From a virus, in IMG/VR virus record IMGVR_UViG_3300025326_000085, positions 1-42,670 of that record: a stretch of DNA of 42,670 bases; one strand, 5' to 3'. Both the position numbers and the translations under genes were made by a program. Positions 2,724 to 42,670 of this stretch are shown here, one piece after another (position 1 is the stretch's first letter; each line of letters begins with the position of its first letter). The notes beneath the pieces were generated by a model. It searched no databases and was not told the DNA's origin. It worked only from the letters and a program-made list of their open reading frames with translations.

Positions 2724-3343
2724 ACACTAAATCCTGGACCATCGCCGGTGTTATCGTCATCATCCTCGCCTTCTCCCATTACATGAGTTACCGTTATGGC
2801 CGGGAGTCCATGAGGGCAGAGATCTTGAGCCAACCCATCGTAAGCGACACCACGCACGGTCCCCTGATCCCCTGGAAGCCTCCGGTGCATGGCGAAGCAG
2901 ACGCCAACTGGCCTGATAATGGCCCGGTGGCAACCCAATCAGAACCTGAAATAACTCGGCATCCCGGAACAATCCCGGGGCTTTTAGGAGTGATTGATTC
3001 TCTTAAAACCTTGGTAGGAATGAAGAATCTTTCTCTTTCTTCGGCCCTCAGAGTAATGAGAGCGACCATTAGAGAGTACGGCAACAAGGTGGACGTTACG
3101 GCTGATCCAGCAACAAGACGCTTCACGTGGGACTGGATACCGGCACAAGCCGAATCCTCCGCCTTGACGACAATCACAAATACCAGATTCATCCCTGCTC
3201 CTGAAAAAGACTTCTGGATTGTGGGCCATCTCGCTTTGAACGGAGGAGGGGGGACCGTCGGGTTTAAGAGTATCGGTATCGGACGGTTGATGACCGCCGG
3301 CACCAAACCTATTACTTTCTTGAGCGCGAAGATAGAATTTTAA
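2720..3343 (+). CDS. Membrane-anchored periplasmic protein, spanin-like position
   Basis: The ATG overlaps the stop of the peptidase gene by four bases. The 207-residue product has one N-terminal transmembrane segment (about residues 7-19, AGVIVIILAF), then a proline-rich linker (LIPWKPP) and a probable periplasmic region ending in a glycine-rich beta segment. There is no signal-peptidase site after the hydrophobic stretch, so it is best read as a signal anchor. A small bitopic protein directly downstream of an endolysin suggests an inner-membrane spanin or another lysis accessory, but it lacks the long coiled coil of classical Rz. The last 32 bases overlap the convergent gene 3312-3533. Confidence 0.6.
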   Translation: MNTKSWTIAGVIVIILAFSHYMSYRYGRESMRAEILSQPIVSDTTHGPLIPWKPPVHGEADANWPDNGPVATQSEPEITRHPGTIPGLLGVIDSLKTLVGMKNLSLSSALRVMRATIREYGNKVDVTADPATRRFTWDWIPAQAESSALTTITNTRFIPAPEKDFWIVGHLALNGGGGTVGFKSIGIGRLMTAGTKPITFLSAKIEF

Positions 3344-3533
3344 GTGCCACGCCGAGTGAATCACGTTCACGCCGCATAAGAGCGACCGAGAAGATTGTAA
3401 TGCCGAACTCTTGGGCGAGTGTCCAGTTATTCGTCCGCACATCCGCTAACGCCAGTGTTAATCGCCTCACACCTCCTGGGCCATGTTCTTTACCAACGGC
3501 TTCAACCGTCCGCGCCAACACCGTAAGGATCAT
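3312..3533 (-). CDS. Small helix-turn-helix-like protein, second gene of leftward operon
   Basis: The ATG at 3533 overlaps the stop of the upstream leftward gene (ATGA), so the two are co-translated. The 73-residue product is basic. Its C-terminal half has a segment (NWTLAQEFGITIFSVALMRR) that can be read as a helix-turn-helix, with LAQEFGIT as the first helix and turn. The N-terminal half is an amphipathic helix. It probably binds DNA or partners with the product of 3530-3841. Its 3' end overlaps the end of the membrane-anchored gene 2720-3343 on the opposite strand. The fold assignment is by eye and weak. Confidence 0.55.
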   Translation of the reverse strand: MILTVLARTVEAVGKEHGPGGVRRLTLALADVRTNNWTLAQEFGITIFSVALMRRERDSLGVALKILSSRSRK

Positions 3534-3841
3534 GTCAACACCTTCGGCCTGACGGCCCGCTCATCCTGGCTGGTGCGCACCTTCTTGTACCGGGTGCGCT
3601 TCTCCTCACTGGAGGACTCGATTGATTTCAGGTAGAACTCAACAGCCTCCTCGACCTCGCCCCGAAAAAAATAATGCTGTTCAAAAAATGCGTCTTTGAG
3701 TTGCGCCGCTCGTGAGATGGACACCCCAAGCGTCAAGGCAATTTCTCGCAGCACCGCGCCCTTCTCCAAGGCATCGTAGAAAGCCATAAAAGCGTCGAAG
3801 CCCCGCGTTTTCAGGAAATTATGTGTACTGATGAATGACAT
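3530..3841 (-). CDS. Helix-turn-helix regulator candidate
   Basis: The start is ATG at 3841, preceded on the minus strand by GGAGAG at a seven-base spacing; the in-frame GTG at 3856 overlaps that site and is rejected. The 103-residue product contains a clear helix-turn-helix-like stretch (VLREIALTLGVSISRAAQLK, about residues 30-49), followed by a helical and then a basic C-terminal tail (KRTRYKKVR). It is divergently transcribed from the rightward early promoter at 3951, with about 110 bases of operator-like DNA between. That is the place of a phage repressor or Cro-type switch. No integrase is present, so a lysogeny role is not supported; an early-gene regulator is the safer reading. Confidence 0.65.
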   Translation of the reverse strand: MSFISTHNFLKTRGFDAFMAFYDALEKGAVLREIALTLGVSISRAAQLKDAFFEQHYFFRGEVEEAVEFYLKSIESSSEEKRTRYKKVRTSQDERAVRPKVLT

Positions 3842-3950: not shown

Positions 3951-3979
3951 TTGACATTCACTTGAATATTCTATACACT
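3951..3979 (+). promoter_or_regulatory. Major rightward early promoter
   Basis: TTGACA (3951-3956) is followed by a 17-base spacer and TACACT (3974-3979), giving a predicted start near 3986. The spacer contains the palindrome GAATATTC (3964-3971), the core of the element repeated at 2214 and 3890, which is a natural place for a repressor to block polymerase. A run of eight C residues (3943-3950) abuts the -35. This is the best promoter sequence in the window and it faces the early operon. Confidence 0.7.
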
Positions 3980-3985
3980 CAGATT

Positions 3986-4116
3986 GTCGGGCGGGGTTGC
4001 ACGACTTCTTACTGTGTCTCATAATATATATCCTGTAACATGACACCGTAAGATTGAAGCACCCCAAGATTGATGTTTCAACCCCGTTCGATGCGCTAAA
4101 TCGGACGGGGTTTTTT
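3986..4116 (+). ncRNA. Leader or small RNA with mutually exclusive antiterminator/terminator pairing
   Basis: The transcript expected from the promoter at 3951 would be about 130 bases long if it ends at the terminator 4080-4116. Its first 13 bases (3986-3998, GTCGGGCGGGGTT) can pair along their whole length with the terminator 5' arm at 4080-4092 (ten Watson-Crick and three G-U pairs). Those same 13 bases otherwise pair with 4100-4112 to form the terminator. The two folds exclude each other, which is the hallmark of an attenuator. The middle holds two copies of AAGATTGA (4050-4057, 4066-4073) and a GTGTC/GACAC pairing. No ORF of note is inside. It could instead act as a free small RNA. Confidence 0.5.
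4080..4116 (+). terminator. Intrinsic terminator ahead of the early operon
   Basis: A 13-base-pair stem (4080-4092 with 4100-4112, one G-U pair) closes a seven-base loop and is followed by a run of T (4111-4116, TTTTTT). It stands between the early promoter and the first early gene, so it must be bypassed for the operon to be expressed. Confidence 0.85.
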
Positions 4117-4153
4117 ATTGCCCTGGAAGTTTGCAGAGCGTTAGGGTGAAAAA

Positions 4154-4270
4154 ATGAAATTCGCGTCTTGGGTAGGATTCATCGCATGTCCCCTTTCCAT
4201 TCCTACCAATTTCCACACCCAGATGCAAGGCCATAATGTTCCGCCTCTGCGTCTTGAGATCGTCCCGTGA
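4154..4270 (+). CDS. Small first early ORF, 38 residues
   Basis: ATG at 4154 follows AGGGTG at a good distance. The product begins MKFASWVGFIACPLSIP and has no recognised motif. Its TGA (4268-4270) overlaps the GTG start of the next gene as GTGA, the coupling seen throughout this operon. It is the first reading frame after the terminator 4080-4116. It may be a real small protein or a leader whose translation opens the start of the next gene. Confidence 0.45.
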   Translation: MKFASWVGFIACPLSIPTNFHTQMQGHNVPPLRLEIVP

Positions 4271-4548
4271 AAACGTCCGTGAAAATTCCAATAGACCGCA
4301 CCGTCTTCACCCTCGGCGACATCTACCAAAATGCCCTCGACCATTACGAAGAAATCTGCCCGAGGCTCAAGGCGCTCCCTACTGTTGCGCCGATTATCGG
4401 CCTTTCGGAAAAGAAGCTCTACCGGGCCACGAAAAATGAGGCGGGTTTAAGCGCCGACGAGGAGGGAAGGCTGTTCGTGACGACGGTATTTCCAGAAGGG
4501 TACGATTTGAAGAAGAAACTGCTGTTCCCCCAAATGGAGGGGAAATAA
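4267..4548 (+). CDS. Hypothetical early protein, 93 residues
   Basis: The start GTG at 4267 overlaps the stop of the 38-residue ORF and has only a weak ribosome-binding site, which fits translational coupling. The product begins MKTSVKIPIDRTVFTLGD and is predicted to be mostly helical with a lysine-rich C-terminus. I do not recognise the family. It lies just upstream of the recombination ATPase, with about 50 bases between, so it may be an early host-takeover or recombination accessory protein. Confidence 0.65.
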   Translation: MKTSVKIPIDRTVFTLGDIYQNALDHYEEICPRLKALPTVAPIIGLSEKKLYRATKNEAGLSADEEGRLFVTTVFPEGYDLKKKLLFPQMEGK

Positions 4549-4597
4549 TTAACTCGCGTTCCACAAATAACTACCAAACAACATAAGGAGTAACACC

Positions 4598-5932
4598 ATG
4601 TCAATCCTCAAAACACTCGGCGCCGGTCAGGGATACTTGAAGGCAGGATTCCTCGGCTGGCAGAAGTCCGGCAAGAGCTACACCGCGTCGCTCTTGGCGA
4701 TTGGACTGAAGAAGTATTTCAACATCGCCTCGCCGATCGCCTATTACGACACCGAAGGCGGATCGGAGTACGTCTCGCCTCTCATCAAGAAAGAAACGGG
4801 TCAAGACCTGGTAGGCATCAAAAGCCGGGCCTTCTCGGACCTCCTCGCCACCGCACATGAATGCGTCAAGGAGGGCATCGGCATCCTCATCGTCGATTCG
4901 ATTACCCATCCCTGGGACGAACTGATGGACTCATGGCTCAAGCGCGTCAACGAGATGCGCAAGGGCAAAAACCTTCCCCCGCGCAAGCGCCTCGAACTCG
5001 AAGACTGGGGCCAGATCAAGAAGGAGTGGAAGCCCTGGACGGACTTCTACCTGAATTCACCACTGCACATCATCATCTGCGGCAGGGCCGGAGACATCTG
5101 GGAGCGTGAGGAGAACGAGGAAACCGGCAAGAAGGAGCTGGTAAAAACGGGCGTCAAGATGAGGGTCGAGGGTCAATTCGGCTATGAACCCTCCCTTCTG
5201 GTGCTGATGGAACAGGAGCAGATACCCGCCGAAAACGGAAAGCGTATCCAGGTCGTCCGCCGTGCAACGGTCCTCGGTGACCGCTTCGGCGCCTCCTCCG
5301 GGTTGGACGGAAAATCCTGCGACAATCCCGGATTCGATTTCTTCGTGCCCCACATCAAACTCCTCAAGCCGGACGCCCACACCACCATTAACACCGAAAC
5401 CACCACCGCCCTCAACGTGGACGACGATGGAGACACCGATTGGGCGAGGGAGAAACGTTCCCGCGCCATCTTCTCCGAGGAGATTCAAGGATTGCTCGTC
5501 GCCCATTTCCCCGGCCAGGATGCGGTCTCGAAGCAAACGAAATCGGACCTGATCTACAAGCATCTCAAGACCCGCTCCTGGACGCAGGTGGAAAGTACAA
5601 AGGCGGACATCCTGAAGGCGGCCCTGAACTCGATGAGGGCTGAACTTGAGCCCGCTGCGACGGAGAACACCACCGCGCCGGAAGGGAACCAGAGTGCTCT
5701 CTTCAGCGAGACAGGTGCGCCGACGAATGATAGACCCCTCATCATTGAGATTCTCGCCAAGATCAGAAAGGCGAAGAGTGCAAAAGCCCTCGGCTATCTT
5801 CAGAAGGAAGCCGAAGCGTTCGCCGCACAGGGGATCATCGTCAACGGCGGGATGGAGCAGATCACGAACGCCATCAGTGACCGGTTGGCCTCGATCTCGG
5901 CAATCACCAAGAAGGAACCGGCCACAGTATAA
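4598..5932 (+). CDS. Sak4/RecA-like phage recombination ATPase
   Basis: A strong AAGGAG site precedes ATG 4598. The 444-residue product has a P-loop (GWQKSGKSYT, residues 20-29) and a Walker B (GILIVDS, Asp about residue 100) in a RecA-like core covering about the first 250 residues. This matches the AAA_24/Sak4 group of phage proteins, which act with single-stranded DNA-binding proteins in strand annealing or recombination. The region after about residue 260 is acidic and low in conservation signals, then ends in a helical domain (about 375-440). Family members are often only the core length, so the C-terminal extension is notable and may bind a partner. No SSB gene is recognisable nearby. 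It is the largest early gene and probably central to replication by recombination. Confidence 0.8.
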   Translation: MSILKTLGAGQGYLKAGFLGWQKSGKSYTASLLAIGLKKYFNIASPIAYYDTEGGSEYVSPLIKKETGQDLVGIKSRAFSDLLATAHECVKEGIGILIVDSITHPWDELMDSWLKRVNEMRKGKNLPPRKRLELEDWGQIKKEWKPWTDFYLNSPLHIIICGRAGDIWEREENEETGKKELVKTGVKMRVEGQFGYEPSLLVLMEQEQIPAENGKRIQVVRRATVLGDRFGASSGLDGKSCDNPGFDFFVPHIKLLKPDAHTTINTETTTALNVDDDGDTDWAREKRSRAIFSEEIQGLLVAHFPGQDAVSKQTKSDLIYKHLKTRSWTQVESTKADILKAALNSMRAELEPAATENTTAPEGNQSALFSETGAPTNDRPLIIEILAKIRKAKSAKALGYLQKEAEAFAAQGIIVNGGMEQITNAISDRLASISAITKKEPATV

Positions 5933-7577: not shown

Positions 7578-7903
7578 CCCCAACCCCTAAAACAACCATC
7601 GCCGACGCCGCAGAAGCGATACGCCGCATCACCGGCAACCCGAGTTGTAAACGCTCAGGCTGTCATGGAAGGGGATACGTCTCAATCACACTCGACCAGG
7701 ACGGCTCGGCAAAGGTCAACCTCTGCGAATGTGGGAGGATCGGTAGATCAGATTACAACGTCCTGCAGGAGCGTCTCGACGCAATAGAGCGCAACTTTGA
7801 AGAGATGAGTACGATGGTTTTCCGTCACACCTTATTCGGAGGGTTGAAAGTAGTGTGGCGAAAATTTATGAAGGGGCCGGGACTAAAACGACCAACTGCT
7901 TAA
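7574..7903 (+). CDS. Zinc-finger protein, 109 residues (DnaJ-type Cys pattern)
   Basis: ATG 7574 overlaps the previous stop by four bases. The N-terminal half has CKRSGCHGRGYVSI, then LCECG, which is close to half of a DnaJ-type CxxCxGxG zinc centre. The C-terminal half is helical and basic (LKVVWRKFMKG). The 3' end overlaps the HNH gene by 49 bases in another frame. Probably a nucleic-acid- or protein-binding early factor. Confidence 0.7.
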   Translation: MTPTPKTTIADAAEAIRRITGNPSCKRSGCHGRGYVSITLDQDGSAKVNLCECGRIGRSDYNVLQERLDAIERNFEEMSTMVFRHTLFGGLKVVWRKFMKGPGLKRPTA

Positions 7904-8256
7904 CAGAACTCCGCGCAATCTTCAATCGTTATCCGCGCTCTGAGTTTCACCGTGCGGTTAAGATGCTCATGCGCGAACGTCTGGAGAAGGGCGACCGAGA
8001 GAGAAGAAAACCCATCTCGTGTAGAGATAAATGGAAGATATTTTACAAGCAGTTTGGGAAGTGTCCCCGGTGCGGAGATGAAAAAAACTTCGCCGAAATG
8101 ACGGTAGATCATATTGAGCCGATTGTGAAGGGCGGGTTACACGCGGCGGGGAATTTCCGACTTGTTTGTGCGACTTGTAACTCAGAAAAAGGCGATAAGG
8201 ATTTACTGCAAGATTCCAAGCGCACGGGGAATACGGTATTGTCACAACTGAAATGA
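7855..8256 (+). CDS. HNH endonuclease
   Basis: GTG 7855 follows GGAGGG. The 133-residue product has a basic N-terminal region, then a CPRCG zinc-binding pair, MTVDHIEPI (the DH of HNH), a GNFRLV segment with the central Asn, and VCATCNSEKGD with the second CxxC. The ordering is that of a classical zinc-stabilised HNH nuclease of the McrA/Gp-HNH type. In phages these are either homing endonucleases or packaging and recombination nucleases. It lies in the early operon far from terminase, which favours a free-standing endonuclease. The next gene starts within its stop codon (ATGA). Confidence 0.85.
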   Translation: MAKIYEGAGTKTTNCLTELRAIFNRYPRSEFHRAVKMLMRERLEKGDRERRKPISCRDKWKIFYKQFGKCPRCGDEKNFAEMTVDHIEPIVKGGLHAAGNFRLVCATCNSEKGDKDLLQDSKRTGNTVLSQLK

Positions 8257-8738: not shown

Positions 8739-9046
8739 CAGACAAACTACCGGAGAGGGTGCGGAGAGAGGTTGAGCGGATTCGTTCGATGCAGAACGAG
8801 CACGGGGACGTTCTTGCCCGACAATATCTTGCCGACGAGATAGTCAAACTCCGCGCCTCCTGCCTCGCCTCGGAGAATAATGGGGGGTGGAGGAAGGAAG
8901 TGATTGGCGACCTGGGAAGTGCTCAGACATTATGCTGTATTTATTTTGATATAGCCGCCGCGATCATCGGGGAAGATGAAGTGCGAAGGCGGAGGGACAT
9001 CCTTATTGAATCTCTCACAGAACACAGGGAGGAAAAGCTAAAATGA
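8735..9046 (+). CDS. Hypothetical early protein, 103 residues
   Basis: ATG 8735 overlaps the previous stop by four bases, which decides the start. The product begins MTDKLPERVRREVERIRS, is strongly helical and charged, and has a central hydrophobic helix (LCCIYFDIAAAII) that is too short and mixed to be a sure membrane segment. No family recognised. Confidence 0.65.
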   Translation: MTDKLPERVRREVERIRSMQNEHGDVLARQYLADEIVKLRASCLASENNGGWRKEVIGDLGSAQTLCCIYFDIAAAIIGEDEVRRRRDILIESLTEHREEKLK

Positions 9047-9082: not shown

Positions 9083-9640
9083 ATGGAGATCACAAAGATG
9101 TGGCTTGAGGCAAGAGACGCTTGCTCAGAGGGCGTTGAGTGGTTTTTAGAGCGGAAGGAAACCGATCCGAGGAAGTTGACTCTCCTTCTCCTGGAAAACG
9201 ATCATTTCGATTGGGCAAATTGGCTGATCGTCCGGTTGCTCACAAAAGATAATAACGTCTGGTACGCGATCCACGCGGCAGAGGCGGTGTTGAATATCTA
9301 CGAGAAGAAATATCCAGAAGATAATAGGCCCCGTAAGGCGATTCAGGCGGTGAAGGCATACCTGAAAGCGCGAGGCGTCAAAAGAAAGGCCGCCGCACGG
9401 GCCGCACAGGCCGCCGCACGGGCCGCACAGGCCGCCGCAGGGACCGCCGCATGGGCCGCATGGGCCGCACAGGCCGCCGCAGGGGCCGCCGCACAGGCCG
9501 CCGCACGGGCCGCACAGGACGCACAGGCCGCCGCATGGGCCGCACAGGCCGCCGCAGGGGCCGCTATAAAACAGAAAATAATTCGGTACGGCTTGAAATT
9601 GTACGCTACACAGATGAAAAACAAGAAGGAGGGCGGGTAG
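9083..9640 (+). CDS. Imm5-like protein with alanine-rich heptad array
   Basis: AAGGAGG precedes ATG 9083. The N-terminal about 100 residues (WLEARDACSEGVEWF, then WANWLIVRLL, then YPEDNRPRKAIQAVKAYL) match my memory of the Imm5-like domain, a predicted immunity-protein fold also found in phages. Residues about 103-161 are an Ala-rich tract built on AAARAAQ heptads with Trp, Gly and Gln substitutions. A short basic C-terminus follows. True Imm5 proteins neutralise toxins; for phage homologues the role is unknown. Ala-rich helical extension is seen in this family, but the near-perfect DNA repeats here are unusual. No toxin gene is visible nearby. Confidence 0.65.
   Translation: MEITKMWLEARDACSEGVEWFLERKETDPRKLTLLLLENDHFDWANWLIVRLLTKDNNVWYAIHAAEAVLNIYEKKYPEDNRPRKAIQAVKAYLKARGVKRKAAARAAQAAARAAQAAAGTAAWAAWAAQAAAGAAAQAAARAAQDAQAAAWAAQAAAGAAIKQKIIRYGLKLYATQMKNKKEGG
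9389..9565 (+). repeat. In-frame GC-rich tandem repeat (21-base unit) in the Imm5-like gene
   Basis: Units based on gccgccgcac gggccgcacag encode AAARAAQ; the first two copies are identical and a further exact copy follows later, with shortened or varied copies between. All variation is in multiples of three bases and keeps the frame. This is the profile of a tract that expands and contracts. Confidence 0.85.
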
Positions 9641-9688: not shown

Positions 9689-9985
9689 ATGAATCCAATC
9701 GAGGAAAAGGCTGAAAAGTACGCAGAGGGTGCATGGCCCGCCCAGGTCAATGCCTATGAGCGTGGCGGACGTGTGGGTGCAAGAAATGGTTATCTCGCCG
9801 GACACGCCGCCGCCCTCTCCGAGCACGAGGGGGAGATGGAGAAAGCGTTTGAAGCGGGGTGGAATGCTCGCAATAACCGGGATTATGGTGGGCCTCGCTA
9901 CAATACTACAGAGCCGGATATTCAACGTGGTGTGGATTTCGCCGCCTACCTCTCCCAGACCAGGAAGGAGAAAGGAATAAATTGA
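9689..9985 (+). CDS. Hypothetical early protein, 98 residues
   Basis: ATG 9689 overlaps the TAA of a 15-codon mini-ORF (TAATG). The product begins MNPIEEKAEKYAEGAWPA and has alternating Ala/Gly-rich and charged segments (GYLAGHAAALSEHEGEMEKA). It reads as a helical small phage protein of the kind found beside replication or modification genes. Its stop overlaps the TTG start of the hexapeptide-repeat ORF. No family recognised. Confidence 0.65.
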   Translation: MNPIEEKAEKYAEGAWPAQVNAYERGGRVGARNGYLAGHAAALSEHEGEMEKAFEAGWNARNNRDYGGPRYNTTEPDIQRGVDFAAYLSQTRKEKGIN

Positions 9986-10095
9986 TCTACACAATGAGTC
10001 AAGCGTCTGAAAAGTATCCCAGTGTGACGCTTTATGGCGATGTCTATATCGGGGCGAGAGCTGTCATCGGGGCGGGAGCCGACATCGAGATATGA
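9982..10095 (+). CDS. Micro-protein with hexapeptide (left-handed beta-helix) repeats
   Basis: TTG 9982 overlaps the previous TGA (TTGA); an in-frame ATG at 9994 is the alternative. The 37- or 33-residue product is almost entirely VTLYGDVYIGARAVIGAGAD, which fits three successive six-residue [LIV]-G-x4 turns as in left-handed beta-helix acyltransferases. A full enzyme would need several more coils, so this is either a remnant or a minimal self-assembling unit. Overlap-coupled start and clean stop suggest it is translated. Confidence 0.5.
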   Translation: MIYTMSQASEKYPSVTLYGDVYIGARAVIGAGADIEI

Positions 10096-10135
10096 TAGGA
10101 TCGTTGGACATGGGAGAGAGAAGTGAGATGAAGGG

Positions 10136-10561: not shown

Positions 10562-10761
10562 GATCAGAATATAAACTCCGCAAAGTAAGGGGGTATGACC
10601 TGCCGAGGCATTGGAGCGGACTCGCCGCAGATTCCATGCCGACCGTGACAAAGCCATTCAAACAGAAGCCGAAGGCCGTTCGATGTGATTATTGCAAGCA
10701 TCCCGGCGGCCATTACCGCAACTGCGCCACTCTCTTTCTTAGAACATTCGGGAAATTTTAA
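10558..10761 (+). CDS. Zinc-knuckle-like basic protein, 67 residues
   Basis: TTG 10558 overlaps the previous stop (TTGA), consistent with the coupling used across this operon; a later ATG at 10636 would remove a basic N-terminal third. Near the C-terminus, CDYCKHPGGHYRNC has the 14-residue span of a CCHC zinc knuckle, but the His is one position later than in the retroviral type (CX2CX5HX3C). The rest is basic (KPFKQKPKAVR), so RNA or single-stranded DNA binding is likely. Its TAA overlaps the next ATG. Confidence 0.65.
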   Translation: MRSEYKLRKVRGYDLPRHWSGLAADSMPTVTKPFKQKPKAVRCDYCKHPGGHYRNCATLFLRTFGKF

Positions 10762-11429
10762 TGTCGAAGCTCAACCCTACTCAAACACGACGGGCACTTA
10801 CCCAAGCCGTCGAGGAATACGGGAATCGTTGCCACATCTGCAATAGAACGGATCGGCCCCTCGAAGTCGATCACCTAAACGGCGATCCCGAGTACAATCC
10901 CTCCGACGGTTCAAACTGGGCGCCGGCCTGTGGCCGGTGCAACAAGGCGAAGGGTCCACGTCGCGGACCGGGAAAACGCTCGAAAAAGGCAGCGTCATCC
11001 ATTCTCCCGGGTGGGGATAAAAATTTGGTATCTCCTAATACCTTGAGAGAGAGTGAGAGAGAGGGAGAGAGAGAGGGAGTGAGGATGATGTCGGGGGAAA
11101 TGGTGAAAAACATGGAGTGTGAGCCTAAGTTCAGGAAGTATGTATATAAGATCGTGAGAGAGTTTGGGATGGTGGTGTACAGAGAGCTGAAGGTTGCAGG
11201 AGCCGAGTATGCGGGGGTTTCAGCCCAGACCGCGGACCGGTACTTGGAGAAAATGTGCTCTTTCGCGGGTTCGATGGAGATATTCCGTAACCAAGATGGT
11301 GAAAAATGTGTCCGCTTGAGGGCCCAGGCCACTCCTCCCGAACCCCAAGTCGTACCCCATCCTGAGAGGAAAATCCCAACAAACGGGGAGAAACACCGAC
11401 TCTCAGAAGCTGCGAAGAAAGAACTATGA
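10761..11429 (+). CDS. HNH protein with C-terminal winged-helix-like domain
   Basis: The ATG overlaps the previous TAA by one base. Residues about 20-65 carry CHIC, LEVDHLNGDP and CGRCNKAKG, a zinc HNH core with the central Asn in GSNW. A low-complexity acidic/basic linker (REGEREG, encoded by a GA-rich purine tract at about 11046-11084) leads to a C-terminal helical domain (YAGVSAQTADRYLEKM) that reads as a helix-turn-helix or winged helix. A nuclease core fused to a DNA-binding domain suggests a site-specific HNH protein or a regulator that reuses the fold. It is followed by one small gene and then the late promoter. Confidence 0.7.
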   Translation: MSKLNPTQTRRALTQAVEEYGNRCHICNRTDRPLEVDHLNGDPEYNPSDGSNWAPACGRCNKAKGPRRGPGKRSKKAASSILPGGDKNLVSPNTLRESEREGEREGVRMMSGEMVKNMECEPKFRKYVYKIVREFGMVVYRELKVAGAEYAGVSAQTADRYLEKMCSFAGSMEIFRNQDGEKCVRLRAQATPPEPQVVPHPERKIPTNGEKHRLSEAAKKEL

Positions 11430-11647
11430 ATCGCTCTCGGGCGAGGATTTACACCCGTATCAGGAAGGCGTACTGGAACCTGACCAGGGACGGTGAAATG
11501 TCTCAAGGTGAAGCGGTTGATCGAATCGCCGCAGACCCGGAGATTAACATCTTGGGGTATAAGCCCTCCTATATTTTGGATGTTGTCGCCCGCGTTGATC
11601 CGGTACGCAAAGATCGGCGTAAAAAGATTTTGGGAAATTCCCGTTGA
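11426..11647 (+). CDS. Small basic protein upstream of late promoter, 73 residues
   Basis: ATG 11426 overlaps the previous stop (ATGA). The product begins MNRSRARIYTRIRKAYWN, is basic and predicted all-helical, and could hold a helix-turn-helix (MSQGEAVDRIAADPEI). It is the last gene of the early operon, and its stop codon is embedded in the -35 of the late promoter at 11644. By position it is where lambdoid phages carry the Q antiterminator, although no similarity is visible. No family recognised. Confidence 0.65.
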   Translation: MNRSRARIYTRIRKAYWNLTRDGEMSQGEAVDRIAADPEINILGYKPSYILDVVARVDPVRKDRRKKILGNSR

Positions 11648-11673
11648 CACGATAGGGCAAAAGTATGTAAATT
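11644..11673 (+). promoter_or_regulatory. Late promoter candidate
   Basis: TTGACA (11644-11649) is a perfect -35; TAAATT at an 18-base spacing (11668-11673) is a fair -10. The start would be near 11680. It faces the terminase genes and lies just upstream of the terminator at 11708. Confidence 0.5.
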
Positions 11674-11707
11674 TCATCCCAGTGAAGCATGGTGTTATTC
11701 CTCCTAC

Positions 11708-11746
11708 GGGTGTAGTGGGCCGCGAGTCCCACTGCACCCTTTTTTT
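11708..11746 (+). terminator. Intrinsic terminator between late promoter and terminase
   Basis: Bases 11708-11719 (GGGTGTAGTGGG) pair with 11728-11739 (CCCACTGCACCC), a 12-base stem with one G-U, eight-base loop and a seven-T run. It would stop early-operon transcripts and short late-promoter transcripts alike, 16 bases before the terminase start. Confidence 0.85.
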
Positions 11747-11761
11747 ATCGTGTAAATCGTG

Positions 11762-38929: not shown

Positions 38930-41900
38930 ATGCCCGAAGGAAAGCGCATACCGCCCCCGCCGATCTTCCCTGAGGACGATCAATCAACGGCAATAGCGCA
39001 AGACCGTCCGTTTTACTCTGGAAAGAAGCGCCGAATTCCGCCGCCTCCACTCTTCCGGGACGACGAGCAACCCTCACTCCTGGGTGAGGATCTCTATGAT
39101 ATTTTCACAACAACGGGACGGACGCTCAGTGAGGGGCTTGCCGATCTCGAAATCGGTCCCGGTCCAGGCGGAAGACCGGCGTTCACAAAAAATCCCATCG
39201 CCGGTGGAGCGAAGATTCTCCGCTCGGTGGGGGAAGCTGTCGCCGCGCCATTCGGATTGATCGACCGGCTCCTGCGGACCAATTCCATAACCACCCCGAT
39301 CGCCGAGGGTGCCGCCATGCCCTTCGAGCTCGCCGCGGGTGCCGTCCGTGGTGGGGAAAAACTCATCGACGTTGGCTTGAGAGGCGCCGGAGTCCCCGAG
39401 TCGGTAATGAACCTCGGGATGGACCCCCAAAAGGCCGCTGAGGCCGCCACAGCCCTCTCAGAATTAAACCAGATAGCCGCTCAGTTCGCCGTACCACTTG
39501 CAGGCAAGAAAATAGGGGGTAAAACAGCAGGGAAGATTATCAAGATGCAGGAGGAGGCATCGCGCCCCATTTTCCGCCCATCCAATCGGGAGCCGGTCGA
39601 CTACATCGCCCCGGAAAGCCGTCAACTCTACCCTCCGAGGAACCAGCGTTTCGAACAGCGTCCAGGTCAACCAGTCCGGGACATCAAGGCCGGTGTACCA
39701 CTTCGTAAAGTCCCGCCACTCCTGCCTGAAAATCTTCCCCTAAGGAAACCCGAGTTTGAGCCCGTCCGCACATTTGAGGTAGGTCCGGAAGGTGGAGCGA
39801 AGGCGATAAAATCCACACCAGCCCCTTTGACGAGCCGCATTGATAAAGCTCTCTCTGATGTGGCTCCAAACACCAAAGCGAGAATCAAACGCAAGATCGA
39901 AGCGAAAGATAAACTCTCAGTGGGAGAGAAAAACATCCTCACCCAGAGGGACCGTAACCTCTTCGACGATATGTATGAGCCAAAGGGCTTACCGCAGTTA
40001 CCCGAAGGCGGAATCCCCGCGATCGACAACAATATCGTATTCGACATTAACGACTACCGAAGCGGAGAATCATTTGGTACGGTCCGCGCCAACGATCCGA
40101 ATACCGGTAAAACTATCGGCAAAGTAGATTTCTCAGAGTATGGGGGGAATGTTTATGTGAAGATGGTGGAGGTAACGCCGGAGTTTCGTCGTCAGGGCAT
40201 AGCGACAAAGATGTACGATCGCATCAAGCAGGAATACCCCAAGGCAAAAATTGAGCGATTCGGCGATATGTCGACCGACGAAGGAGCAGCTTTCAGGGAA
40301 TCATTAAAGGGTGAAGCCGAGAAAGCACCAAAACCCGATCCCACCACGATCAAAACGAAACTCATCTCGTTGCGCGATCAAGTGAATAAGGGTAGGTACA
40401 GAGGAAGAGTAGCCGACATCACCGAAGCGGAACTCTTGGCAAGACGCAACGGATTTGATTTCTCCTACGATCCCGGCACACTCAAATACAACGTCATTTC
40501 AGCCGAAGGGAAGAAGCTCAAGAAAGTCCCAGAAGTGAAGATGAGTGATAATGCCCCCAACCCCACACTCCTTGAGAATATCAATCCTGAAACGAGAACC
40601 CGTATTCAGGACATCCTCGATGAAGTAGGAGAGGACATCAACATTGAATCCTTGACGAAGCCCCAGATCGAAGCCGCAATCAAGGACATCAGGATCGACA
40701 AGGGAAAAGAAGCGTCTCGCCGCGCCCAGATGTTGATTGATGAACTTTTGAAAGCTGAAGCCGAAGGCATTGTCGGTGTTGTGAGTGGGTCTGTTCCGGG
40801 CGTCGGGAAGGATATACGTGGCATCAACGTGAACGATCTCCTTGAGCAGAAATACGAGCGGGAGGGGATAGTCGGGGAGATGGGGTCCGGACTTGATGTG
40901 CCCGTCCCAGAGGTCAATATCCCAGAAGTCCAGCGCCGACGGGCTAATTCATTTACAGATATCCGAAGTCTTGAGGAAGAATTAAGGCGTGTAAATCTGG
41001 TGGTCAAAAGTAAAGAATCGTTATCCCCATCAGAACAAATAGAGTTGGGGGAATACTACGACGCCTTACTGGACAGACGTGGTGGTTTGAAGCCTGTCGG
41101 AGAGCCTCTCTCCTTTGACAAAACTGCGGCCGGCGAACAGGGCAGTTTCGCCAAGCTCGAACAGGCGAAGATGCCTCCGCGCAAGCCATCCGGCCTCTCC
41201 TACGAGCAACAGGTGGAAGGGACGATGTTCGAAAAGCCCAAAACTCCGGGAGCACCGCAGGAGGAGATGTTTAGAGTGGGCAATCCCGATGCCCTCGCTC
41301 AACAAATCGTAAATATTGCAACAACGGGCGAGGGAGCTTCTATTGAAGGTATTGCTCGGGCCCGAGAGCTTGCTGAACAGAGCAAAGACATTTTCACGGG
41401 GGCTCAACGCGAGGAGATCGCATCATTCTTAAATGATCTCGAATCGAAGCTGAAAAAACCAGGGGCTCCTGTCGTATTAACAGCAGAGGATATTGTCCGA
41501 GAGCAGAGCGGTCTGAGCAAGGTAGGAGCGCGGTCAGGCAAATCCATCGAGGAACTCTATCCATCCAAGCCCAAGCCGCAATCCTGGCAGGGCGCCGTCT
41601 CAGAATCCTCCAAGCGTCTCAAGGAAAAAGGTCTTTCCCCCGATCGCCCACAGGGCAATCTCCCTTCAGGCTTAGACCCGACAACACTCATAGATCCCAA
41701 GAAAGTCAAATACATCATCGACCCGATCATCAAGAAGGCCACGAGCGACGCCCGAAAGATGATTATTGACCAACGCATGAGGCCAGAGCAATTCCCCTTT
41801 GAAGTTCGCTCGACGATCAACACGCTTTTATCAGAGCATCCAGATTTCAGAGGATTATCGGCAGAGCAGAAACGGGCCATCTTCAATCACGTCAAGGATG

Positions 41901-42670
41901 TCACGAAAAACCTTGTCTTCAATCCCGTGGTGGGGGAATTTCAAACACAAGAAGGCAGGAAATTCCGCGAAGAGATGAGGAAAGCCCAGGGTGGAGGATT
42001 GACCCCCGCGCCGATTGAAGGTGGTAGGATCATCTCAGAGCCGATGAAGAGGGAAAACATAAACCCCACAGAGATATTCAGCGATGGGATGAAATCATTT
42101 ACTCGTCGTGAATTGACAAGCACGATGGGGGAGTATGTTAAAAGTCAGGGCTCATCCGGTGAATCTCTTATCCGGTCCATCAATCGAGATTACCGTGAAT
42201 CGGCGCAATGGGCTGGTAGACTGGAAGTCGATTACCGCGTTGCAACCAAAAAACTCTCTAATCAGGAATTCGACGAGTTTGTAACTCTTGCCGATGAAGG
42301 AGGAACCACCAGAAACGCGAATGTAGCCGATGCTCTAAAGGTTTGGGACAAGATCAGGACGGAGATCGCTGACCGCGCAATGAAGGCCGAACTCGAAATT
42401 GCCACCTTCGACAGAGCGAAGGGGGATTTCGTCAAAGTTCCGTTTAAGCCGATGGAAAATTATTTTCCCCACGAATTCGACATCACCGAGATCAAGAAAG
42501 CCGCCAACCGGGAGAAATACTTGGAGCGGATCGCCGAACGGTACAAGGTTCCAAAGTCCGAGGCTGAATGGATCTTCAATAAATGGGTCCGCTCACGCAT
42601 TGAAGTAAAGTACGGCCACCTTGAGCACGCCCGAGACTTTGACATCGGAGGATGGAAACGATCGAGAGAT
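38930..42670 (+). CDS. N-terminal part of giant polyvalent/internal virion protein with embedded GNAT domain
   Basis: ATG 38930 directly follows the previous stop. The frame is open for 1,247 codons to the window edge and continues at base 149 to 1354, giving about 1,648 residues. Visible parts include two N-terminal proline motifs (KRIPPPPIFPEDD at 5-17, RRIPPPPLFRDDE at 34-46). A GNAT acetyltransferase-like motif A follows (VTPEFRRQGIATKMY, residues 415-429) in a beta-alpha context (about 375-450). Then come long charged, helical regions. Giant multi-domain proteins of this kind (polyvalent proteins) are injected with phage DNA and act early on the host; other internal virion proteins lie next to it. 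The GNAT could modify a host protein or a nucleic-acid component, but its catalytic competence is unproven. Confidence 0.75.
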   Translation, partial: MPEGKRIPPPPIFPEDDQSTAIAQDRPFYSGKKRRIPPPPLFRDDEQPSLLGEDLYDIFTTTGRTLSEGLADLEIGPGPGGRPAFTKNPIAGGAKILRSVGEAVAAPFGLIDRLLRTNSITTPIAEGAAMPFELAAGAVRGGEKLIDVGLRGAGVPESVMNLGMDPQKAAEAATALSELNQIAAQFAVPLAGKKIGGKTAGKIIKMQEEASRPIFRPSNREPVDYIAPESRQLYPPRNQRFEQRPGQPVRDIKAGVPLRKVPPLLPENLPLRKPEFEPVRTFEVGPEGGAKAIKSTPAPLTSRIDKALSDVAPNTKARIKRKIEAKDKLSVGEKNILTQRDRNLFDDMYEPKGLPQLPEGGIPAIDNNIVFDINDYRSGESFGTVRANDPNTGKTIGKVDFSEYGGNVYVKMVEVTPEFRRQGIATKMYDRIKQEYPKAKIERFGDMSTDEGAAFRESLKGEAEKAPKPDPTTIKTKLISLRDQVNKGRYRGRVADITEAELLARRNGFDFSYDPGTLKYNVISAEGKKLKKVPEVKMSDNAPNPTLLENINPETRTRIQDILDEVGEDINIESLTKPQIEAAIKDIRIDKGKEASRRAQMLIDELLKAEAEGIVGVVSGSVPGVGKDIRGINVNDLLEQKYEREGIVGEMGSGLDVPVPEVNIPEVQRRRANSFTDIRSLEEELRRVNLVVKSKESLSPSEQIELGEYYDALLDRRGGLKPVGEPLSFDKTAAGEQGSFAKLEQAKMPPRKPSGLSYEQQVEGTMFEKPKTPGAPQEEMFRVGNPDALAQQIVNIATTGEGASIEGIARARELAEQSKDIFTGAQREEIASFLNDLESKLKKPGAPVVLTAEDIVREQSGLSKVGARSGKSIEELYPSKPKPQSWQGAVSESSKRLKEKGLSPDRPQGNLPSGLDPTTLIDPKKVKYIIDPIIKKATSDARKMIIDQRMRPEQFPFEVRSTINTLLSEHPDFRGLSAEQKRAIFNHVKDVTKNLVFNPVVGEFQTQEGRKFREEMRKAQGGGLTPAPIEGGRIISEPMKRENINPTEIFSDGMKSFTRRELTSTMGEYVKSQGSSGESLIRSINRDYRESAQWAGRLEVDYRVATKKLSNQEFDEFVTLADEGGTTRNANVADALKVWDKIRTEIADRAMKAELEIATFDRAKGDFVKVPFKPMENYFPHEFDITEIKKAANREKYLERIAERYKVPKSEAEWIFNKWVRSRIEVKYGHLEHARDFDIGGWKRSRD
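42521..42670. repeat. Right copy of the terminal direct repeat
   Basis: This 150-base copy matches bases 1-148. It keeps the reading frame intact (YLERIAERYKVPKSEAEW), so it is probably the correct version and the left copy has sequencing or assembly errors. It lies wholly inside the giant virion gene. Confidence 0.9.

Follow-up and report, generated by a model that had tools for sequence, protein, structure and literature searches.

In the pT181 repC leader, a pre-emptor sequence pairs with the 5' arm of a terminator except when an antisense RNA has bound (PMC5703833). The leader described here belongs to the early operon of an uncultivated phage and resembles those of pT181 repC and pIP501 repR, in which a leader pre-emptor likewise rivals the terminator 3' arm for the 5' arm (PMC5703833). 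It differs from both in its setting in a phage early operon, in having its candidate pre-emptor strand (element A) at the extreme 5' end, and in an extra strand (element D) that competes for A. No sequence relation to either leader was found.

In the immunity system of P4, the early genes of a phage element are under leader termination, and two leader sequences, seqA and seqC, are both complementary to a third lying between them (PMC4825925). That third sequence is the CI RNA, which is processed out and, as an antisense RNA, targets seqA on its upstream side and seqC on its downstream side (PMC4825925). The present leader is alike in the arrangement of its complementary sequences and in the termination proposed for it, but here the middle sequence (element B) and the downstream one (element C) themselves form an intrinsic terminator. 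The Gifsy-1 IsrK RNA offers a second likeness, since it is a short RNA reaching to an intrinsic terminator, with readthrough reaching a small ORF that is coupled to the gene after it; IsrK activates translation in trans (PMC4825925). The passages of that paper on which the comparison draws describe no complement of a terminator arm for IsrK, in which it differs from the leader here, and the leader has no Rfam or sequence match to the IsrK family. The put RNA of HK022 is also a phage leader RNA located 3' of an early promoter and counters termination, but it works by binding RNA polymerase, with effects at a great distance downstream (PMC9378689), unlike the local competition for a terminator arm that we propose.

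The leader feature is real and non-random. We consider it somewhat probable (about 0.55), judging from its sequence and from modelled folding, that the untranslated leader of this early operon belongs to a known class of transcription attenuators while having a sequence of its own. As is general for attenuators of the terminator/antiterminator type, an intrinsic terminator lies between the promoter and the first gene, and an alternative helix that sequesters a terminator arm is present beyond chance expectation.

Genome setting and parts of the leader

The window, that is, the whole stretch of DNA analysed, is a virus record of 42,670 bases. It is a tailed-phage genome with identifiable terminase, portal and major head proteins. 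Late genes end at 3343, and rightward genes begin at about 4,150. In a closely related contig, L002, the segment corresponding to 41719-41948 is placed about 2.7 kb ahead of the segment from 1704 onward, and this order suggests that the two ends of the window are neighbours in the genome. The leader would therefore follow the last of the late genes and precede the first of the early ones. A putative gene for a 103-aa protein (3530-3841, minus strand) diverges from the early promoter; its product appears helix-turn-helix-like by eye and has no significant Pfam or PHROG match.

The leader itself is on the plus strand. It begins with a sigma-70-like promoter, TTGACA-17-TACACT (3951-3979), scoring 10/12, which predicts a +1 near G3986, 7 nt past the -10 element. 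Element A, GTCGGGCGGGGTT (3986-3998), thus occupies the predicted 5' end and is the putative pre-emptor or antiterminator strand. It is followed by an upper leader hairpin (4006-4053) with a 23-nt AU-rich apical loop (4019-4041), and by element D (about 4059-4074), the candidate anti-antiterminator and the partner of A in the most stable predicted structure. Element B, AACCCCGTTCGAT (4080-4092), is the terminator 5' arm and can pair with A or C. Element C, ATCGGACGGGGTT (4100-4112), is the terminator 3' arm and runs into a T-rich tract that ends at 4118. The motif CACNNNAAGATTGA occurs in tandem at 4044-4057 and 4060-4073, the two copies being 16 nt apart and the second overlapping D; it is absent elsewhere in the window and is possibly the binding site of a regulator.

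The first candidate start codon, which belongs to a putative 38-codon leader ORF (4154-4270, plus strand), stands only about 36 nt beyond the terminator tail. A purine-rich GGGTG lies just 5' of its ATG, and its TGA stop overlaps the GTG start at 4267 (GTGA) in a layout like that of translational coupling. This GTG opens the first early ORF proper, of 93 aa (4267-4548, plus strand), which has no family match, and is followed in the early operon by an AAA_24 ATPase (phrog_1366; 4598-5932, plus strand). Further into the early region, a 185-aa protein (9083-9640) clearly matches phrog_38757, a family of unknown function, and shows weak, below-cut-off similarity to Imm5-type immunity proteins. HNH/endonuclease VII-like genes occur at 7855-8256 and 10761-11429; near them the alignment with L002 is broken at 8896-9043 and 9845-10114, where that contig has longer, different sequence.

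On the plus strand of the whole window, there are only two promoter-like sites scoring at least 10/12, the cut-off used, and only two strong intrinsic terminators, defined by a stem of at least 11 pairs. Each of these promoters precedes one of the terminators, giving units at 3951/4080 and 11644/11708, and promoter-then-strong-terminator units occurred in none of 60 shuffled windows. The first unit heads the early operon. The second precedes the terminase genes at the head of the late operon and consists of TTGACA-18-TAAATT and a 12-bp stem (11708-11739) within 11644-11747, just 5' of the terminase small subunit gene; 5'-end complementarity of the kind seen in the leader is absent from it (-5.8 kcal/mol). 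In the lambda pR'-tR' late unit, a terminator also follows close behind a promoter at the head of an operon, and reading past it needs the Q protein. The 11644/11708 unit resembles pR'-tR' in position and in promoter-terminator layout, and no Q-like protein turned up in the set of early ORFs that was scanned.

No promoter of at least 9/12 was found between the first terminator and the 38-codon ORF at 4154. A promoter-like site scoring 9/12 is at 4210 and could drive the 93-aa ORF and downstream genes independently, a point against the attenuator reading. Control of all early genes by the leader is suggested by the lack of any other good predicted promoter.

Competing helices and the order of folding

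The pairings, their energies, their order and their rarity by chance are computed results. A and B pair at 13 of 13 positions (10 Watson-Crick and 3 G.U pairs; -21.0 kcal/mol), as do B and C (13/13 including 1 G.U; -21.2 kcal/mol). A and C are identical at 11 of 13 positions, which makes the 5' end of the RNA a near-duplicate of the terminator 3' arm, and they are the sole 13/13 partners of B on the plus strand of the whole window. The third helix, A:D (-11.1 kcal/mol), places D at the foot of a rod that carries the AU-rich loop on its upper stem. Among dinucleotide shuffles of 3986-4079, a 13/13 pairing to B was reached in 1 of 20,000 and a pairing of -21 kcal/mol in none of 4,000. The 135-nt RNA as a whole folds at -47.4 kcal/mol, with a z score of -4.8 against shuffles. 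An earlier sequence-only reading of this DNA had claimed that 3986-3998 is fully complementary to 4080-4092, which itself pairs with 4100-4112, and that the two folds exclude one another; the coordinates proved exact, and folding of both structures bears out the exclusion while adding A:D as a third, mutually exclusive helix.

Folding of the growing transcript gave A:D from about 4068, A:B once 4092 has been made, and A:D together with B:C from about 4108. The probability of A:B was about 0.9999 at a transcript end of 4092 and 0.997 at 4105. In the full-length RNA, the state with B:C and A:D is better than the A:B state by 9.3 kcal/mol. Direct-path barriers, which are crude estimates at 37 C, were about 7.6 kcal/mol from A:D to A:B, 3.6 kcal/mol for formation of B:C on an A:D background, and about 9.3-13.8 kcal/mol, varying with transcript length, from A:B to B:C. 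A toy kinetic estimate using plausible constants (1e5-1e7 attempts per second; 20-80 nt/s) gave a readthrough of 0.05-0.70, and the switch is therefore not thermodynamically locked. The outcome of termination would then be kinetic and could be tuned, the toy estimate giving a range and not a predicted number.

The best-supported logic in these models is one in which A:D serves as anti-antiterminator, A:B as antiterminator and B:C as terminator. We infer the start site, termination, regulation, effector and effect on early genes from these predicted parts, as follows. RNA polymerase would start near 3986, and A would pair first with D in the rod-shaped hairpin. Once B had emerged, it would displace D to form A:B, and B, being kept from C, would allow the polymerase to read into the early genes. 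If A were held by D, or if A:B were undone, B:C would form the intrinsic terminator and an RNA of about 130 nt would be released. Stabilisation of A:D or capture of A, whether by a protein, an antisense RNA or the speed of the polymerase, would turn the early genes down, and the opposite would follow if D were occupied, for example by a factor on the tandem CACNNNAAGAUUGA motif. The sequence-only reading had proposed an on/off switch for the early genes; the promoter-proximal geometry of an attenuator holds up under folding, but the analysis identified no regulator, be it a ligand, a protein or an antisense RNA.

Relatives of the leader

Three proteins (the AAA ATPase, the product of the 93-aa ORF and the divergent 103-aa protein) and an exact 23-nt pattern of the leader, used as IMG/VR queries, all led to the same single contig. 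A terminase search found three records that are 98-99% identical, only one of which, the L002 contig, carries the leader. A search of phage and plasmid nucleotide sequences with the leader yielded no relative and only short weak matches (E about 1), and bacterial genomes gave no match by protein or by a 27-nt leader pattern. With the covariance models of Rfam 15, nothing in the window matched at gathering score, and the best sub-threshold matches to the leader (E<=5) reached 13-17 bits, far under the gathering scores and at chance level. A tRNA, tmRNA or 6S reading has no support. The sequence-only reading had likewise recognised no family, in agreement with the lack of any Rfam, phage, plasmid or bacterial-genome match to the leader. 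A distant AAA homologue in Cronobacter phage phiES15 has a different gene context and is of no use for comparison of the RNA.

L002 is thus the single relative that carries the leader, over which it is 97% identical, with differences at 4033, 4047, 4065, 4075, 4092 and 4117 and with A and C unchanged. Through T4092C, the outermost pair of A:B goes from G.U to G-C and B:C loses its innermost pair; C4065G weakens A:D. This one 97%-identical relative accordingly keeps A:B at 13/13 (-22.3 kcal/mol) and has B:C at 12/13 (-20.7 kcal/mol). The earlier reading would have taken loss of A:B beside a conserved terminator as evidence against a switch, and the one relative shows no such loss. These changes are compatible with the attenuator, but weakly so, because T4092C is the one kind of change in three that preserves A:B pairing, and it is a single change in a single relative. 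The six substitutions in 133 nt of the RNA region, all within the 85 nt of 4033-4117, form a local hotspot, in contrast to about 1% change over the rest of the 7.2 kb alignment and to an unchanged 4118-4567. The substitutions spare the fixed positions of the tandem motif.

Alternative explanations and significance

The main rival to the attenuator, which we regard as possible though doubtful, is a stable small RNA of about 130 nt, composed of the A:D rod and the terminator, that acts in trans and is accompanied by partial readthrough to the early genes, as in the IsrK layout. In its favour, the most stable fold combines a rod with a perfect terminator (z -4.8), substitutions between the two phages cluster in the RNA region, and the succession of short RNA, terminator and small ORF overlapping the next start resembles isrK-orf45-anrP (PMC4825925). 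This explanation leaves the 13/13 match of the 5' end to the terminator arm unaccounted for, and no target was found; with the short transcript from the window's second unit (11680) the RNA pairs no better than chance (56 of 500 shuffles). The small RNA and the attenuator are compatible and may coexist.

It is unlikely that 4080-4112 is a plain terminator for the late operon, or an insulator of the early operon, lying by chance 3' of the early promoter with A:B incidental. Since this is one of only two strong plus-strand terminators in the window, late transcripts passing 3343 would have no other strong stop, which favours such a role. One would expect a stop for the late operon only, however, to lie upstream of the early promoter, and a 13/13 A:B pairing was seen in just 1 of 20,000 shuffles and is located at the predicted +1.

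Antisense attenuation of the pT181/pIP501 type, in which an opposing RNA on the leader hairpin would capture A and force B:C, is quite improbable here, even though A corresponds to the pT181 pre-emptor in position and logic (PMC5703833). Unlike in pT181 and pIP501, no convincing antisense promoter was found, the strongest promoter-like candidate on the minus strand within the leader being a weak one (8/12; 4052, CTTACG-18-TATATT). We give very little weight to the joint proposal that the leader is a self-contained immunity or timing switch, whose released RNA of about 130 nt would act on the nascent early leaders of incoming related phages, and that the RNA differences between the two phages would set immunity specificity. 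Also very improbable are DNA operators for a regulator such as the divergent 103-aa protein: a single 12-13 bp sequence recurs as A, B and C, grouped in the promoter region, but B and C occupy precisely the positions of terminator arms followed by a T tract, no such site lies near the start of the divergent gene, and that gene has no significant family match.

If the attenuator reading is true, the early operon of an uncultivated phage would be governed by RNA folding within its first 130 nucleotides, with the pre-emptor strand standing at the extreme 5' end. All of the parts lie within about 170 bp, which would make testing in vitro easy. The leader would then be a phage case of a mechanism for which plasmids and bacterial leaders supply most of the known examples.
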